Positions 14,221 through 52,631 of a DNA stretch of 64,000 nt are shown piece by piece; the first letter of the stretch is position 1, and each line of letters opens with the position of its first letter. The notes beneath the pieces were generated by a model, which made no database searches, was not told the origin of the DNA, and saw only the letters and a program-made list of their open reading frames with translations. The stretch lies in contig CANQSB010000004.1 in the NCBI GenBank assembly GCA_947626435.1, positions 1 through 64,000 of the forward strand. The letters run 5' to 3'. A program made the translations under genes and the position numbers. This DNA comes from an uncultured Lachnospiraceae bacterium (GTDB taxonomy: Bacteria > Bacillota > Clostridia > Lachnospirales > Lachnospiraceae).

Positions 14221-14301
14221 AAGGAGTTTGCACCTTTCATTAATGATTAAATGTTTTCTCAACCGTCAGAATTGGGTTTTGAAAATGCCTATTGATTATT
14301 A

Positions 14302-25667: not shown

Positions 25668-27395
25668 GTGAAGAGAGTGATTATGTATTATTTGCGACCG
25701 TATTATCTTCGGATGATGTTTGGGTTTGTGATAAAGTTTGTGGGGACTATTATGGATTTGTGTCTGCCTTGGATTTTGGCGTATATGATTGATACGGTTA
25801 TTCCGCAGGGGAGGCAGGGGGATATATTTTTCTGGGGCGTTGTGATGTTTGGGTGCTCTGTGCTTGCGCTTGTGTTTAATGTTATTGCAAACAGGATGGC
25901 GTCGAAGGTGGCGAGGGATGCTACGCAGGCGGTGAGGCATGATTTGTTTGAGCGGATTATGTGGCTTTCACATTCGCAGACTGACGGTTTTACTAAGCCG
26001 TCGCTTATATCGCGGCTTACGACGGATACTTACAATGTGCATCAGATGCTGGGGCGGGTGCAGCGTCTTGGGGTGCGGGCGCCGATTTTGATTGTGGGGG
26101 GTATTTTGGTGACGCTTACGCTTGACCCTGTGTTGACGCTGGTGTTGGTGTCGGTTATGCCTGTTATTGTGTTTATCACTGTGTATGTTTCAAAGAAAAG
26201 TATTCCCATGTATACGGCACTGCAGGCGGCTGTGGACCAGTTTGTGCGGATTATACGCGAGGATGTGGCGGGGATACGCGTCATAAAGGCGTTGTCAAAG
26301 ACTGACTATGAGAAGGAAAAGTATGACGCTGTGAATAAGGAGGTAGTGGGGCGCGAGAGGAAGGCTGACACTACGATGGCGGTGGTAAATCCGAGTATGA
26401 ATATGTTCCTTAATCTGGGGCTTGTGTTTGTCGTGCTGGCGGGGGCTTACCGCGTGAATGCGGGGCTTTGCGAGGTTGGGAAGATACTGGCGTTTCTTAC
26501 TTATTTTACTATTATACTTAACGCGATGATAAATATTTCAAAGATGTTCGTGATTATATCAAAGGCTGTGGCGTCGGCGGACCGTATTGTGGAGGTAATT
26601 GACGCGCCGCCTGAAATGCTCTGCGGGGTGTTTGAGCGGCTTGAAAATGAGGACGCGTTTATCAGGTTTGAGCATGTGAGCTTTTCATACAAGGGCGGAG
26701 AGCCGGATGTTGACGATATAAGCTTTTCGCTGAAAAGGGGAGAAACGCTTGGAATACTGGGGGCTACGGGTTCAGGGAAAAGCACGATTGCGCAGCTTCT
26801 CATGCGATTTTATGATGCTGACAGTGGTGCCATATACATAGATGGGGAGGACATACGCTCGATAGAGGCGAAGGCGCTGCGGGATAAGTTTGGAGTGGTG
26901 TTTCAAAACGATACGCTTTTTGAGCAGTCGATTACGGAGAATATCAGGCTTGGCAGGGAGCTTAGTGATGAGCAGGTAAAGGAAGCTGTGCTTTATGCCA
27001 GGGCGAAGGAGTTTGTCGAGGAGAAAGGACGCGGTTATGACAAGCTTGTCAATATCAGAGGCGCGAATTTGAGCGGTGGGCAGAAGCAGCGTATTCTGAT
27101 TGCGAGGGCGCTTGCCGCGCATCCTGAGATACTGGTGCTTGATGATTCGTCGAGTGCGCTTGACTATAAGACGGACGCGGCGCTTAGGCATGAGCTTGCG
27201 GAGCATTTCAAGGATACGACGAAGGTGATTATTGCGCAGCGAATAAGCTCTGTGATGTACGCCGACCATATTTTGGTGCTTGATGACGGCAAAATGATTG
27301 GCTATGGCACACATAATGAGCTTATGGAAAGCTGTGAGGTTTATCGTGAGATAGGCATTTCGCAGATAGGCGAAGGGCAGGAGGTATCTGTTTGA
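25668..27395 (+). CDS. heterodimeric ABC exporter subunit with degenerate ATP site
   Basis: Multidrug-type exporter half. Membrane domain about residues 1-300, ATPase domain with Walker A GATGSGKST, a normal signature LSGGQKQRILIARA, but Walker B LVLDDSSSALD, where the catalytic Glu is replaced by Asp. This is the hallmark of the non-catalytic subunit in TM287/288-like or BmrCD-like heterodimers. I place the start at GTG 25668, 10 bp behind GGAGG; ATG 25683 is an alternative, and the ORF-track start is too far upstream. Its partner is the 28336 gene, with an SGNH hydrolase gene in between. Confidence 0.9.
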   Translation: MKRVIMYYLRPYYLRMMFGFVIKFVGTIMDLCLPWILAYMIDTVIPQGRQGDIFFWGVVMFGCSVLALVFNVIANRMASKVARDATQAVRHDLFERIMWLSHSQTDGFTKPSLISRLTTDTYNVHQMLGRVQRLGVRAPILIVGGILVTLTLDPVLTLVLVSVMPVIVFITVYVSKKSIPMYTALQAAVDQFVRIIREDVAGIRVIKALSKTDYEKEKYDAVNKEVVGRERKADTTMAVVNPSMNMFLNLGLVFVVLAGAYRVNAGLCEVGKILAFLTYFTIILNAMINISKMFVIISKAVASADRIVEVIDAPPEMLCGVFERLENEDAFIRFEHVSFSYKGGEPDVDDISFSLKRGETLGILGATGSGKSTIAQLLMRFYDADSGAIYIDGEDIRSIEAKALRDKFGVVFQNDTLFEQSITENIRLGRELSDEQVKEAVLYARAKEFVEEKGRGYDKLVNIRGANLSGGQKQRILIARALAAHPEILVLDDSSSALDYKTDAALRHELAEHFKDTTKVIIAQRISSVMYADHILVLDDGKMIGYGTHNELMESCEVYREIGISQIGEGQEVSV

Positions 27396-27452
27396 ACTGC
27401 TGAAGCGGCATGGAAGGTTAAAAAACGAAAGGACTAAAATGGAGGGATTGAG

Positions 27453-28082
27453 ATGAAGAAATTAGCGATTATCGGGGATTCTTACAGTACCTATGAGGGG
27501 TATATGCCTGAAGGGTATTCGTATTGGTACGGTACGGTGAACGAGGCGCCGAATGATGTGGAGCGGGTAGAGGAGACCTGGTGGCATAGGCTCTGCTCGG
27601 AAAGAGGCTATGAGATTGCGGCAAATTGCAGCTTCAGCGGAAGCGCGGTATGCTATTCGGGCTATCCTGAGATGGACGGAAAGGGTACAGCGTTTGTTAC
27701 GCGTATGCATCGGGAATTTGGTGAGCTGAAAAGCGCCGGAATCAAGCCGGATTGGATTATCATATTTGGCGGTACTAATGATTTCTGGGCGCAGAGTCCG
27801 ATTGGCAGAATAAAATACGGTCCGAAGTCGGAGGAGGATTTGTTTTCGTTTGCGCCGGCGTTTTGCCTTATGGTGGAGTACATTACGGAGAATTTTCCGG
27901 ACAGCAGAATTACGGTGCTGCTGAATGATGAAATCACATCTGAGATTAGGAATGTGCAGAAAGAAGTCAGCAGGCATTTTGGAGTGGAGCTGTTGGAACT
28001 GAAAAACATTGACAAGCAGAACGGGCATCCGTCAAAGCTTGGGATGAAGCAGATTGCGGAGGCTTTGATGGAAATAGAGTAA
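27453..28082 (+). CDS. SGNH/GDSL-family hydrolase
   Basis: 209 aa cytoplasmic-looking esterase (no signal peptide). Block I GDSYSTYEG with the nucleophile Ser, an Asn/Gly region at ANCSFSGSAVC, block III FGGTNDF and block V HPSKLG with the catalytic His are present. Acts on an ester or acetyl group of unknown substrate. It sits between the two halves of an ABC exporter, 57 bp after the first, so a link to the exporter's cargo is possible (inference). Confidence 0.88.
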   Translation: MKKLAIIGDSYSTYEGYMPEGYSYWYGTVNEAPNDVERVEETWWHRLCSERGYEIAANCSFSGSAVCYSGYPEMDGKGTAFVTRMHREFGELKSAGIKPDWIIIFGGTNDFWAQSPIGRIKYGPKSEEDLFSFAPAFCLMVEYITENFPDSRITVLLNDEITSEIRNVQKEVSRHFGVELLELKNIDKQNGHPSKLGMKQIAEALMEIE

Positions 28083-28170
28083 TTAAAAGCTGGGAAAATC
28101 AGTACGCGGACAGGGAAAAAAGCCGCATGACAGATGATAAGAAAAATGGTAGAAAGCGGTTGTAGATAAG

Positions 28171-28305
28171 CATTTGCGAAACTCTATTCGACAACATAGA
28201 ATTTAGGCAAAATATATAAAATAAGCGGCGTCTCGCGAAGCGCCTAGCCGCGTTTTTATATATTTTGCCTAAATTCGGACAGTTTAGAACACATTTCACA
28301 ATTAA
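28171..28305 (+). repeat. long-hairpin dispersed repeat, copy 1
   Basis: A perfect 23 bp stem (GAATTTAGGCAAAATATATA... with its complement ...TATATATTTTGCCTAAATTC) continues through GCGGC/GCCGC to a short GC-rich loop. Conserved flanks lie on both sides: CTATTC...ATA before and GGACAGTTTAGAA...TTTCACAATTA after. Copy 2 lies at about 51657-51824. The end of the element is about 30 bp before the ATG of the next ABC gene. The remaining gap (28083-28170) shows nothing else. Confidence 0.85.
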
Positions 28306-28335
28306 CTAGCTATTAAAAAAGGGGAGGGCGCATAA

Positions 28336-30108
28336 ATGGCAGATAAGCAGAACCAGAAGTATGAAAAACCGAAAAACAGAAAAGGGACAATGCTGCGGCT
28401 TGGCGTGTATATGATGAAGTATAAGTTTTTGCTGCTTTTTGCGCTTGCGCTCACTGTGGGGAGCAATGTGATGGCGCTGATAGGACCTATGCTTTCGGGC
28501 TATGCTATAGACGCGATAGAGCTTGGAAAGGGGAAAGTGGATTTTCAGCGCGTGTTTTATTACGCGGGGCTTATGGTGGTGTTTTATCTGCTTTCATCGC
28601 TGTTGTCGTATGCGCTTGCGGTGCTGATGATAAATATAAGCCGCAAGGTCGTGTATCAGATGCGCCATGATGTGTTCCACAAGCTTATGGAGCTGCCTGT
28701 CGGGTATTTTGACACGCACCAGACGGGCGATATCATAAGCCGTATTTCGTATGACATAGATACGGTAAATACATCGCTTTCTAATGATATCGTGCAGATT
28801 TTGACTACGGTTATTACGGTCATCGGCGCGCTTTTTATGATGGTGGTGATTTCGCCGAGGCTTGTGCTTGTGTTTGCGGTTACGGTGCCGCTTTCCATAG
28901 TGATTACAAAGTATCTGACGGGAAAGACGCGTCCGATGTTCCGCCTGCGGTCGAGGAAGCTTGGCGAGCTTAACGGCTTTGTAGAGGAGATGATTTCGGG
29001 GCAGAAGACGCTGAAAGCATACAATCAGGAGGAAAATACAATCACGCGCTTTGACGGCAAAAATGAGGAGGCGGTCGAGGCGTACTACAGGGCGGAGTAT
29101 TATGGCAGCGTCGTCGGACCGTCGGTAAATTTTGTGAATAATCTTTCGCTCACGCTGGTAAGTACATTCGGGGCTTTTCTGTTTTTACATGGGCAGTTGA
29201 GTGTGGGAAAAATTTCGTCATTTGTCTTATATGCGAGAAAATTTTCGGGGCCGATAAACGAGGCGGCAAATATTATAAGCGAGCTGCAGTCGGCGCTTGC
29301 TGCGGCGGAGCGCGTTTTCAATATGATTGACGAGCTGCCTGAGCCTGCCGACAGAGAGAATGCCCTTATTCTTGAGCATACGGACGGTGATGTGCGCCTT
29401 GAAAATGTGAGCTTTGGCTACAATAATGACACACCTGTCATAAAAAATCTGAACCTGCACGCTGCGCGTGGCAGACTTGTCGCTGTGGTAGGGCCTACGG
29501 GCGCAGGAAAGACTACGCTGATAAATCTGCTAATGCGTTTTTATGACACTGATGACGGAAATATATATGTTGACAATAATGACATAAGGGAGATAACGCG
29601 TTCAAGCCTGCGCCGTTCATATGCCATGGTGCTGCAGGACACATGGCTTTTCCAGGGGACGATTTTTGAAAATATTGCTTACGGATGCGCTGACGCGACT
29701 TATGACGAGGTGGTTGAGGCGGCAAAGGCGGCAAAAATCCATTCTTATATAAAGCGCCTGCCTGACGGATATGATACTGTCCTTACTGACGACGGCACGA
29801 ATATTTCCAAGGGGCAGAAGCAGCTTCTCACGATTGCGAGAGCAATGCTGATGGATGCGCGCATGCTGATACTTGACGAGGCGACTTCAAATGTGGATAC
29901 GCGGACGGAAATTCAGATACAGCAGGCGATGCGCAGGCTGATGGAGGACAAGACATGCTTCGTCATTGCGCATAGGCTTTCGACGATAAAGAATGCTGAT
30001 GTGATACTTGTCGTAAACCATGGCGAGATAGTCGAGCAGGGAAGCCATAAAGAGCTCATGGAGAAGAAAGGGTTTTATAGCCAGCTTTATAATGCGCAGT
30101 TTGAGTGA
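28336..30108 (+). CDS. heterodimeric ABC exporter subunit with catalytic ATP site
   Basis: 590 aa exporter half. Membrane domain about residues 30-320, ATPase domain with Walker A GPTGAGKTT, Walker B LILDEATSNVD with catalytic Glu, H-loop IAHRLST. The signature is unusual, ISKGQKQLL instead of LSGGQ, which fits the heterodimer rule that the altered signature faces the degenerate site of the partner. It therefore complements the subunit at 25668. SD GGGGAGGG lies 9 bp before the ATG. The function is likely drug or lipid export; cargo not predictable. Confidence 0.92.
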   Translation: MADKQNQKYEKPKNRKGTMLRLGVYMMKYKFLLLFALALTVGSNVMALIGPMLSGYAIDAIELGKGKVDFQRVFYYAGLMVVFYLLSSLLSYALAVLMINISRKVVYQMRHDVFHKLMELPVGYFDTHQTGDIISRISYDIDTVNTSLSNDIVQILTTVITVIGALFMMVVISPRLVLVFAVTVPLSIVITKYLTGKTRPMFRLRSRKLGELNGFVEEMISGQKTLKAYNQEENTITRFDGKNEEAVEAYYRAEYYGSVVGPSVNFVNNLSLTLVSTFGAFLFLHGQLSVGKISSFVLYARKFSGPINEAANIISELQSALAAAERVFNMIDELPEPADRENALILEHTDGDVRLENVSFGYNNDTPVIKNLNLHAARGRLVAVVGPTGAGKTTLINLLMRFYDTDDGNIYVDNNDIREITRSSLRRSYAMVLQDTWLFQGTIFENIAYGCADATYDEVVEAAKAAKIHSYIKRLPDGYDTVLTDDGTNISKGQKQLLTIARAMLMDARMLILDEATSNVDTRTEIQIQQAMRRLMEDKTCFVIAHRLSTIKNADVILVVNHGEIVEQGSHKELMEKKGFYSQLYNAQFE

Positions 30109-32475: not shown

Positions 32476-32500
32476 TAAAAAGGCGGGGAACTTCCCCGCC
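32476..32500 (-). terminator. intrinsic terminator of the leader RNA
   Basis: On the minus strand GGCGGGGAA-G-TTCCCCGCC, a perfect 9 bp GC-rich stem, is followed by TTTTTAT. Confidence 0.85.
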
Positions 32501-32552
32501 GATGATGGACCTGGGTCTTACGACCAGCCCAAATGAAATCATTGATTTCTTT
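32476..32552 (-). ncRNA. short structured leader or small RNA ahead of the DUF3800 remnant
   Basis: A strong minus-strand promoter and an intrinsic terminator bracket about 77 nt without an ORF. The predicted RNA begins with the palindrome GAAATCAATGATTTC, has a second hairpin around CTGGTCGTAAGACCCAG and ends in the terminator stem. The DUF3800 start lies 25 bp downstream of the terminator, so the RNA could be an attenuator leader for that gene or an independent small RNA. I cannot match it to a known RNA family. Confidence 0.5.
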
Positions 32553-44847: not shown

Positions 44848-45133
44848 GAATAAATATTTCAAACTGATGACCAAGAAGAGTACGCGTGTTGTAAGATTTT
44901 CAGAGAGCTGCGGGTGGTGTGAACGCGGCAGTCGATGATGCGGGGAATGGACTTGGGAAGGCGGGAGCAACGAGCGTATGCTCTAGTAATGCCCGACGGG
45001 ATTTCCACCCGTTATAGAGGAAGACGTATGATGGTACGTGCAGAGGGGATGTATTTTGATACATCAATTTAGGTGGCACCGCAGAGGTTTATTATAAGCT
45101 TCTGTCCTAAGTATTTAGGACAGAAGCTTTTTT
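44848..45133 (+). ncRNA. T-box riboswitch, tryptophan specific
   Basis: Leader RNA that reads the charging state of tRNA-Trp and allows trp operon transcription when the tRNA is uncharged. The base of stem I is CCAAG (44871) pairing with CTTGG (44952). The AGTA of the specifier loop follows the first strand, and AATGGA directly precedes the second strand, which places specifier codon TGG (Trp) at 44948-44950. The AGAGAG and GGTGGTGTGAA apical elements are seen. The T-box sequence TTAGGTGGCACCGCAGA (45069) lies 10 bp before the terminator. Confidence 0.95.
45096..45133 (+). terminator. T-box terminator
   Basis: AAGCTTCTGTCCTAA / TTAGGACAGAAGCTT, a perfect 15 bp stem, with TTTTTT at its end. 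The 45134-45291 stretch up to trpE holds no further element that I recognise. Confidence 0.93.
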
Positions 45134-50359: not shown

Positions 50360-51550
50360 ATGGGCGAAAAAAAAGGAAGATATGGATTGTACGGAGGACA
50401 GTATATTCCCGAGACGCTTATTCCGGCGGTTCAGGAGCTTGAAAGGGAATATGAGAAATACAAAAACGATGCGGATTTTAAGAGAGAGCTGAACGACCTT
50501 TTGGCAAAGTATGCGGGCAGACCGTCGCTTTTGTACTACGCGGATAAGATGACCAGGGATTTAGGCGGCGCGAAGATTTATTTGAAGCGCGAGGATTTAA
50601 ACCATACTGGCTCGCACAAGATTAACAACGTGCTTGGACAGGTGCTGCTTGCAAAGAAGATGGGAAAGACGCGCGTTATAGCGGAAACGGGAGCGGGACA
50701 GCATGGCGTGGCTACGGCTACGGCGGCGGCGCTTATGGATATGGAATGTGAAATTTTCATGGGCAAGGAGGACACTGACAGGCAGGTGCTCAACTGCTAT
50801 CGGATGGAGCTTCTCGGCGCGAAGGTTCATCCTGTGACGACGGGCACTATGACGCTTAAGGATGCGGTAAATGAGACGATGCGTGAATGGGCGTCGAGAA
50901 TGGACGATACGCTTTATGTGCTTGGTTCTGTGATGGGGCCGCATCCTTTTCCGATGATTGTGAGGGATTTCCAGAAAATAATCGGAGAGGAGATAAAGGT
51001 GCAGCTTATGGAGGCGGAGGGGAAGCTTCCCGATGCCGTAATTGCATGTGTAGGCGGCGGCAGCAATGCCATGGGTGCATTTTACGAGTTTATACCTGAC
51101 ACGAGTGTCAGATTGATAGGCTGCGAGGCGGCGGGGCTTGGAGTTGACAATCCCAAGAATGCGGCGACAATCGCAAACGGCAGCGTGGGAATTTTCCATG
51201 GAATGAAGTCGCTGTTTTGTCAGGACGAGTACGGGCAGATTGCGCCTGTATATTCTATTTCGGCGGGACTTGACTATCCGGGAATCGGACCTGAGCATGC
51301 AAACCTTTATGAGACAGGGCGTGCGCAGTACGTGCCGATTACAGACGAGGAGGCGGTTGATGCTTTTGAGTATCTTTCGAGGACGGAGGGAATAATTCCC
51401 GCTATCGAGAGTGCGCATGCCGTTGCCTATGCGAGAAAGCTTGCGCCGACTATGGGAAAGGATCAGATAATAGTTGTAAATATCTCTGGACGCGGCGATA
51501 AAGATGTGGCGGCGATTGCAAGGTACAGAGGAGTGCAGATTTTTGAATAA
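50360..51550 (+). CDS. trpB: tryptophan synthase beta chain
   Basis: PLP enzyme, 396 aa, condensing indole and serine. [10 protein letters not shown], then the PLP lysine in [34 protein letters not shown] and the C-terminal GRGDKD are all present. It is the trpB1 type that pairs with TrpA. ATG 50360 with GAGGAG upstream; the ORF-track start is nine codons too long. Confidence 0.96.
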
Positions 51551-51633
51551 AACATTAAGGAACTCTAAGGCAGCAAAAGGCATGCTGCCTAAGACTTCCT
51601 AAATGTTTAGAAAAACGCAAGGGCGGCGTTTTT
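51550..51633 (+). promoter_or_regulatory. two stacked hairpins between trpB and trpA
   Basis: A 59 nt stem-loop begins at the last base of the trpB stop: AAACATT/AATGTTT at the base and AGGCAGCA/TGCTGCCT near the tip, with three mismatches between. A second, AAAAACGC/GCGTTTTT (51611-51632), resembles an intrinsic terminator. Both must be read through to reach trpA unless trpA has its own promoter. Confidence 0.7.
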
Positions 51634-51656
51634 CTTGAATGATTTACATATATTAG

Positions 51657-51824
51657 GTATTTGAAAAAAGCTATTCAGTAATATAGAATTTAAGCGAAAT
51701 ATACAAAATAGGCGGTGCTTTGAGAAGAAACTATGTACTGTATCTGTGATGCAGTACATTAACGCGATTTTGTATATTTGACTAAATTCGGACGGTTTAG
51801 AATATGTTTCGCAATTATATATTT
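51657..51824 (+). repeat. long-hairpin dispersed repeat, copy 2
   Basis: Same layout as 28171-28305: GGTATTTGAAAAAAGCTATTC and ATATAGAATTTAAGC before the stem, TATACAAAAT/ATTTTGTATA as the inner stem, and CTAAATTCGGACGGTTTAGAA...TTTCGCAATTA after. The tip is different: a separate hairpin ATGTACTG/CAGTACAT replaces the short loop of copy 1. The element ends about 20 bp upstream of the trpA ribosome site. Confidence 0.85.
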
Positions 51825-51851: not shown

Positions 51852-52631
51852 ATGAGCAGGATAAAAAATGCATTTGACAATAAAAAGGCGTTTATCGGTT
51901 TTGTGACGGGGGGAGATCCTGATTTGGAGACTACGGAGGAGCTTATCCCCAAAATGGCTGATGCGGGCGCTGATTTGATTGAGATTGGCATTCCGTTTTC
52001 GGATCCCATCGCGGAGGGCGTGGTTATTCAGGCGGCGGACGAGAGGGCTTTAAAGTCAGGCACGACGACGGATAAGCTTTTTGACATGGTTAAGCGCGTA
52101 CGCAGCAGGACCGACATACCGCTTGTATTTATGACGTATATGAACCCCATATATACATACGGTACGGAAAAATTTACAAAAAAGTGCGCAGAGTGCGGGA
52201 TTGACGGGATTATAGTGCCCGATGTGCCGTTTGAGGAGAAGGACGAGGTCAGCGGCGCGTGCGCGAACGCGGGAATAGACCTTATTTCAATGATTGCGCC
52301 GACGTCAAAGGAGCGTATCAGCGTGATTGCAAAGGAGGCGCAGGGATTTTTGTACTGTGTTTCCTCGCTTGGCGTAACGGGCGTCAGAAGTAAAATAACT
52401 ACAAACATCAGCGAGATGGTGGAGCAGGTAAAGGCTGTATCCGATATTCCCTGTGCAATCGGTTTCGGAATCGCGACACCCGAGCAGGCTAAAGAGATGG
52501 CATCATGCTCAGACGGCGCGATTGTGGGCAGCGCGATTGAGAAGATTATAGCGCAGTATGGAAAAGACTGTATCAAGCCTGTGTGCGATTATGTATCGCA
52601 GATGAAGGCTGCGGTAGTTTCCGCGCAGTAA
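51852..52631 (+). CDS. trpA: tryptophan synthase alpha chain
   Basis: 259 aa TIM barrel that releases indole from indole-3-glycerol phosphate. LIEIGIPFSDPIAEGVVIQ carries both catalytic acids (Glu in IEIG, Asp in FSDP). FMTYMNPIYTYG, GIIVPDVPFEE and YCVSSLGVTGVR are normal. GGAGGT lies 6 bp before ATG 51852; the ORF-track start reads into the repeat element and is rejected. Last gene of the trp operon, 302 bp after trpB. Confidence 0.96.
   Translation: MSRIKNAFDNKKAFIGFVTGGDPDLETTEELIPKMADAGADLIEIGIPFSDPIAEGVVIQAADERALKSGTTTDKLFDMVKRVRSRTDIPLVFMTYMNPIYTYGTEKFTKKCAECGIDGIIVPDVPFEEKDEVSGACANAGIDLISMIAPTSKERISVIAKEAQGFLYCVSSLGVTGVRSKITTNISEMVEQVKAVSDIPCAIGFGIATPEQAKEMASCSDGAIVGSAIEKIIAQYGKDCIKPVCDYVSQMKAAVVSAQ

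Follow-up and report, generated by a model that had tools for sequence, protein, structure and literature searches.

A dispersed repeat with a long hairpin, present in the 64,000-nucleotide window (the whole stretch of DNA that was analysed) of an uncultured Lachnospiraceae bacterium, is a MITE, as supported by its terminal repeats, target duplications, empty sites, many copies and lack of a gene. The best explanation overall, in which we place high confidence, is a MITE family that would be moved in trans by the transposase of an insertion sequence (IS) with the same ends, and whose hairpin can be lost.

Copies in the window and anatomy of the family

The window is part of a 3.7 Mb assembly of 98 contigs (G000). 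The preliminary description had placed two homologous stretches in it, and these were confirmed, with 79 % column identity and differing tips. Both places were right and both copies are real, but the true ends, as defined by the terminal repeats, lie at 28167–28308 and 51654–51821, and the two are only part of a family of at least 84 copies genome-wide, of which a third, hairpin-less member also occurs in the window. The features are as follows:

14238–14291, minus strand: third window copy, a short form without hairpin (relic; covariance model, end pattern)
28167–28308, plus strand: copy 1, full-length element (covariance model match of 169.5 bits; 82 BLAST matches in its own genome)
28167–28181, plus strand: left terminal repeat of copy 1, TAAGCATTTGCGAAA (66-copy alignment; end pattern)
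28199–28221, plus strand: 5' arm of the 23-bp stem of copy 1 (inverted-repeat search; RNA fold)
28225–28251, plus strand: GC-rich inner hairpin of copy 1 (GCGGC...GCCGC), then a T-rich stretch (folds; terminator-like site)
28254–28276, plus strand: 3' arm of the stem of copy 1 (inverted-repeat search; RNA fold)
28294–28308, plus strand: right terminal repeat of copy 1, TTTCACAATTAACTA (copy alignment)
28336–30108, plus strand: gene after copy 1, an ABC transporter of 590 aa, with its start codon 28 bp past the element
51643–51653, plus strand: probable left copy of the copy 2 target duplication, TTTACATATAT (comparison with the empty site in G017)
51654–51821, plus strand: copy 2, with a nested-palindrome tip, ATGTACTGTATCTGTGATGCAGTACAT (covariance model match of 113.8 bits; same site in G017 without the element)
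51852–51854, plus strand: start codon of the gene after copy 2, 31 bp past the element

A genome search using BLAST, the 3'-flank pattern and a covariance model located the further copies on both strands. With the 3'-flank pattern alone, 45 matches were obtained in the forward and 39 in the reverse direction, as compared to three and eight for a reversed control. As the covariance model matched every one of the 84 candidates scored, this number is a lower bound.

Complete copies measure approximately 141–175 bp, which leaves no room for a gene, and share a layout in which a terminal inverted repeat of 15 bp at each end is followed inwards by about 17 bases and then, in the centre, by a 20–25-bp stem with a GC-rich inner hairpin at its tip. 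The terminal inverted repeats suspected earlier are real; in the 66-copy alignment the family starts with TAGGCATTTGCGAAA and ends with TTTCGCAATTACCTA, which are imperfect inverted copies of each other over about 15 bp. Reading of around ninety stretches carrying the 3' flank distinguished subfamilies with a short tip, with a tip plus an extra AGCTTGCTGCA, with a nested palindrome in the tip (ATGTACTGTATCTGYGATACAGTACAT) and with an alternative stem (TTTGGGTGAAATATACAAAA / TTTTGTATATTTCACACAAA), as well as tandem pairs and short forms of 54–65 bp without the hairpin. A palindrome-ended insert of approximately 100 bp (GTACTGTTGATATTTAGCAT...GGTACAGTAC), which looks like a further small element that is nested within the hairpin, lies within or replaces part of the copies at four loci (L169 on G000 contig C10, L057, L059 and L085). 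Tandem elements occur in G000 (L017, L025, L026 and L099) and in the more distant genome G210 (L271, L274 and L278), where they stand about 10–11 bp apart with the target duplication as spacer, as if a second copy had reused the site.

The stem of copy 1 is a perfect 23-bp inverted repeat, and its RNA fold is more stable than those of shuffled sequences (z about -7), while the stem of copy 2 is interrupted and weaker (z -3.9). Copy 1 and a 209-aa open reading frame make up a 944-bp block (27378–28321) between two ABC-transporter genes, which is missing in relatives; in G017, G010 and G012 the flanking genes lie immediately side by side. No evident target duplication was found for copy 1 by comparison with these relatives, which lack the whole block. 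Copy 2 lies within what, on reading the encoded proteins, we take to be a trpB-trpA-like gene pair, with the trpA-like gene downstream. Copy 2 is immediately preceded by another dispersed repeat, about 100 bp long (51546–51650); that repeat is likewise missing from the trp site of G017, a genome that itself holds many copies of it (85–93 % identity), with some also in G007, G010 and G012.

Evidence for transposition

That the repeat is MITE-like, one of two possibilities raised in the preliminary description, is borne out by its terminal repeats, by numerous copies on both strands, by target duplications and empty sites, and by a candidate partner IS with matching ends. Good flanking direct repeats of 9–12 bp were found for 13 of 70 copies, as compared to 0.5 on average and three at most when flanks were randomly re-paired; examples include ATCGAATATAAA (L002), ATTATAAAGCT (L005) and AAAGGATATAA (L027). 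The site of copy 2 is empty in G017, where the ancestral ATGATTTATATATCCGCAG is uninterrupted. Similarly, L021 is empty in G017 and G051 and L009 in G051, with about 11–13 bp common to both flanks, and L049 is filled in G000 and G017 and empty in G051. Five other loci considered as empty-site candidates (L023, L016, L047, L005 and L040) could not be read because of rearrangements.

Candidate partner insertion sequence

Searching the genus with the end sequence revealed convergent end pairs 1.77 kb apart in the sister species G044 and G002. These enclose a transposase gene of 491 aa, intact in G044 and interrupted in G002. The IS is flanked by repeats of 11–13 bp, including an 11-bp target duplication (TCAAAATAGAT) in G002 and GGAATCTGTTAAA around a copy in G010, while no clear target duplication was seen in the flanks of the G044 copy. 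In G017 a partner copy that shares the left end is cut off by the end of its contig, and the window's own genome assembly contains only relics of the transposase. Pfam DUF772 (E 1.4e-12) and the IS1182 model of NCBIfam (E 7.8e-20) both match the protein, the latter at 71.2 bits against a cut-off of 270, and it is therefore termed IS1182-like rather than a confirmed member. We know of no name for this IS. Judged by its sequence, it is an IS1182-like element with a DDE transposase and the likely mobiliser of the MITE; action of the transposase on the MITE is suggested by the shared ends and the similar duplication length. The MITE and the IS have only the terminal 15–17 bp in common, and the MITE is thus not a simple internal deletion of the ISs seen. 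Of the expectation that a match to a known IS end would make the repeat a plain MITE, one part is borne out: the ends agree with those of an IS, albeit one without a name known to us. None of the nine loci with DDE_Tnp_1 (PF01609) genes in G000 and G017, which were considered as alternative partners, is flanked by the family ends, and one of them (L201) merely comprises two element copies beside an unrelated transposase gene. The partner transposase was absent from the viral contigs searched.

In the proposed mechanism, a DDE transposase from the same-ended IS would bind to the terminal repeats and mobilise the element in trans, a staggered cut would leave approximately 9–12 bp of duplicated target, and insertion, or later survival, would favour positions some 30 bp ahead of start codons, immediately before the Shine-Dalgarno sequence. 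Once inserted, an element may have its hairpin deleted between short direct repeats, giving remnants of 54–61 bp.

Conservation of pairing in the stem

The family goes beyond an ordinary MITE in that the structure of its stem is kept while the sequence turns over. Across 66 copies in the own genome the 23-pair stem is 96.4 % paired, and the compensatory T:A to C:G change noted earlier between the two window copies is real, with U-A in 48 copies and C-G in twelve at that pair. Changes on both sides of a pair were counted in 60 cells of these 66 copies, against 17 after shuffling and at most three for slid structures, counts which are inflated by the kinship of the copies; the number of pairs with double changes, seven, is barely above the 5.3 of the shuffles. 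More telling than these within-genome counts is the comparison between genera, for which the distant relatives were gathered with a structure model that favours paired stems. In G200, G205 and G237, which represent three other Lachnospiraceae genera, the main stem starts 26–34 bases into the stretch and comprises 21–24 pairs, yet the 5' arms are only about 50–70 % identical to those of G000 and to one another. Two copies in G205 have largely different arms, each almost fully paired. The element of G210 is closer to that of G000 (approximately 80–87 % in the arm; 25 pairs), and the stem of G204 is shorter (15 bp).

The pairing may be kept by selection on the hairpin, as RNA or as DNA, or alternatively by replication-linked correction of imperfect palindromes, whereby the arms would be made to match while their sequence drifts. 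Such templated correction predicts compensatory changes, and there is no clear one-strand bias among the imperfect pairs. It agrees less well with a stem whose place and length are constant across several genera and, as deletion readily removes the hairpins, something must renew them. We consider it possible, though the less probable account of the covariation, and it is a rival to the covariation only, not to the identification of the family as a MITE.

Loss of the hairpin

A second departure from an ordinary MITE is the loss of the hairpin in place. At two orthologous loci the full element in G000 is matched by a short form in G017, with ATTCGA at both deletion ends in one case (L165 vs L174) and TTTAG in the other (L006 vs L183). 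These short forms fit deletion across the palindrome between short direct repeats, and the reverse direction, gain of the hairpin, is also compatible with the two loci. Independent insertion as the sole origin of the short forms is weakened by such orthologous pairs. Several short forms nevertheless carry perfect target duplications (L181 and L184 among them), and some may therefore move as such.

Position relative to genes and rival readings

The copies also cluster about 30 bp before start codons, in either orientation, be it through target choice or through survival, and this again goes beyond an ordinary MITE. A Shine-Dalgarno sequence and start codon lie just past one end in 43 of about 70 copies, with the start codon mostly 24–38 bp away. 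With stricter gene calls, which are simple open reading frame calls, the start codon is 22–40 bp from the element in 16 of 30 same-direction gene pairs, where uniform insertion would give five and the maximum in 100,000 draws was 14. Several G210 copies show a similar spacing by eye. The end facing the gene is the left in 22 copies and the right in 21, so that the shared orientation of the two window copies towards their genes, remarked upon in the preliminary description, is a coincidence.

The inner hairpin is preceded by an A-rich and followed by a T-rich stretch, and one plus-strand terminator-like site was scored. From its sequence the GC-rich hairpin could terminate transcription of either strand; an element inserted ahead of a ribosome site could then attenuate the gene, and one within an operon, as for copy 2 in the trpB-trpA-like pair, could shift the balance between genes. 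Examination of the element ends by eye revealed no convincing, consistent -35/-10 pair of an outward promoter.

These properties bear on two readings in which mobility plays little or no part. The copies might be ordinary intrinsic terminators that are alike through composition, as a GC-rich inner hairpin with a T-rich stretch behind it would suggest, but they precede start codons rather than following stop codons and have target duplications, and the empty sites and the shared ends, conserved outside the hairpin, refute this reading, which retains a negligible probability. A structured 5'-UTR RNA, the other possibility raised initially, finds some agreement in that most copies lie just before a Shine-Dalgarno sequence and compensatory changes keep the pairing. 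The element could accordingly have been domesticated as a cis-regulatory RNA whose hairpin terminates, attenuates or stabilises the transcript, its mobility being incidental. This is improbable, however, considering that both orientations are equally common, that presence varies between sister species, that the hairpin is lost at shared loci and that neither window copy matches an Rfam family; a dedicated regulatory RNA family is not supported.

Distribution and comparison with known elements

Within the genus, four of 38 genomes (G000, G017, G051 and G052) contain the family, with between 38 and at least 84 copies each. At the family level, seven genomes besides G000 matched among 299. A nearly identical element is found in G129, while G210 encodes at least ten copies, several with target duplications of at least 10 bp, and weaker matches occur in G200, G205, G237, G307 and G204. 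No match to the element was obtained in phage records, plasmids or viral contigs. Among 4227 Rfam families none exceeded its gathering cut-off for either window copy; elsewhere in the window Rfam matches a DUF3800-XI RNA (32485–32531, minus strand) and a T-box leader (44858–45112), and a Clostridiales-1 RNA match in G204 (L286, 1–150) stands directly before the distant relative there, outside the element. A literature search for the end strings gave nothing related, as judged by titles and abstracts, and one for MITEs in Lachnospiraceae nothing pertinent. The earlier view that no named family fits stands as far as Rfam and the literature searched are concerned.

REP and REPIN sequences, associated with RAYT proteins, resemble the family in their many extragenic palindromic copies. 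They are, however, of the IS200/IS605 type, with a Y1 HUH transposase and no target duplication, while the present family has target duplications and terminal repeats in common with an IS encoding a DDE-like transposase. The RUP, BOX and SPRITE elements of Streptococcus pneumoniae are likewise short, AT-rich interspersed repeats with strong hairpins and terminal repeats, and IS630-Spn1 has been proposed as the partner IS of RUP (PMC3049150). They differ in their ends and partner, and are over-represented between convergent genes rather than before start codons (PMC3049150). The bcr1–bcr3 repeats of the Bacillus cereus group are similarly MITE-like and intergenic, often in UTRs or intra-operon gaps (PMC3446304). 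They differ by description, bcr1 being B. cereus group-specific according to the title of a paper cited in PMC3446304, rather than by sequence, and no similarity of ends is known. IS1272, of the IS1182 family, has been reported to insert in place of target stem-loops and to produce no target duplication (PMC5678879); the partner transposase matches the IS1182 model, yet the partner has flanking repeats.

For annotation, the family accounts for a large number of repeats in uncultured Lachnospiraceae of the gut which might be taken for riboswitch-like RNAs. It is unsettled why long hairpins are so common among bacterial MITEs, and the family provides a natural test: each genome offers dozens of insertions whose distance to the start codon varies little, sister species show one and the same locus filled, empty or stripped of its hairpin, the stems have changed in sequence with their pairing intact, and there is a candidate transposase with matching ends. 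As a speculative and rather unlikely extension, the family may represent a multi-genus transposon whose target is the junction of transcription start and ribosome site, with a hairpin selected for its structure alone, and may so constitute a portable and sheddable two-way terminator or attenuator. If true, such insertions would tune dozens of genes per genome.
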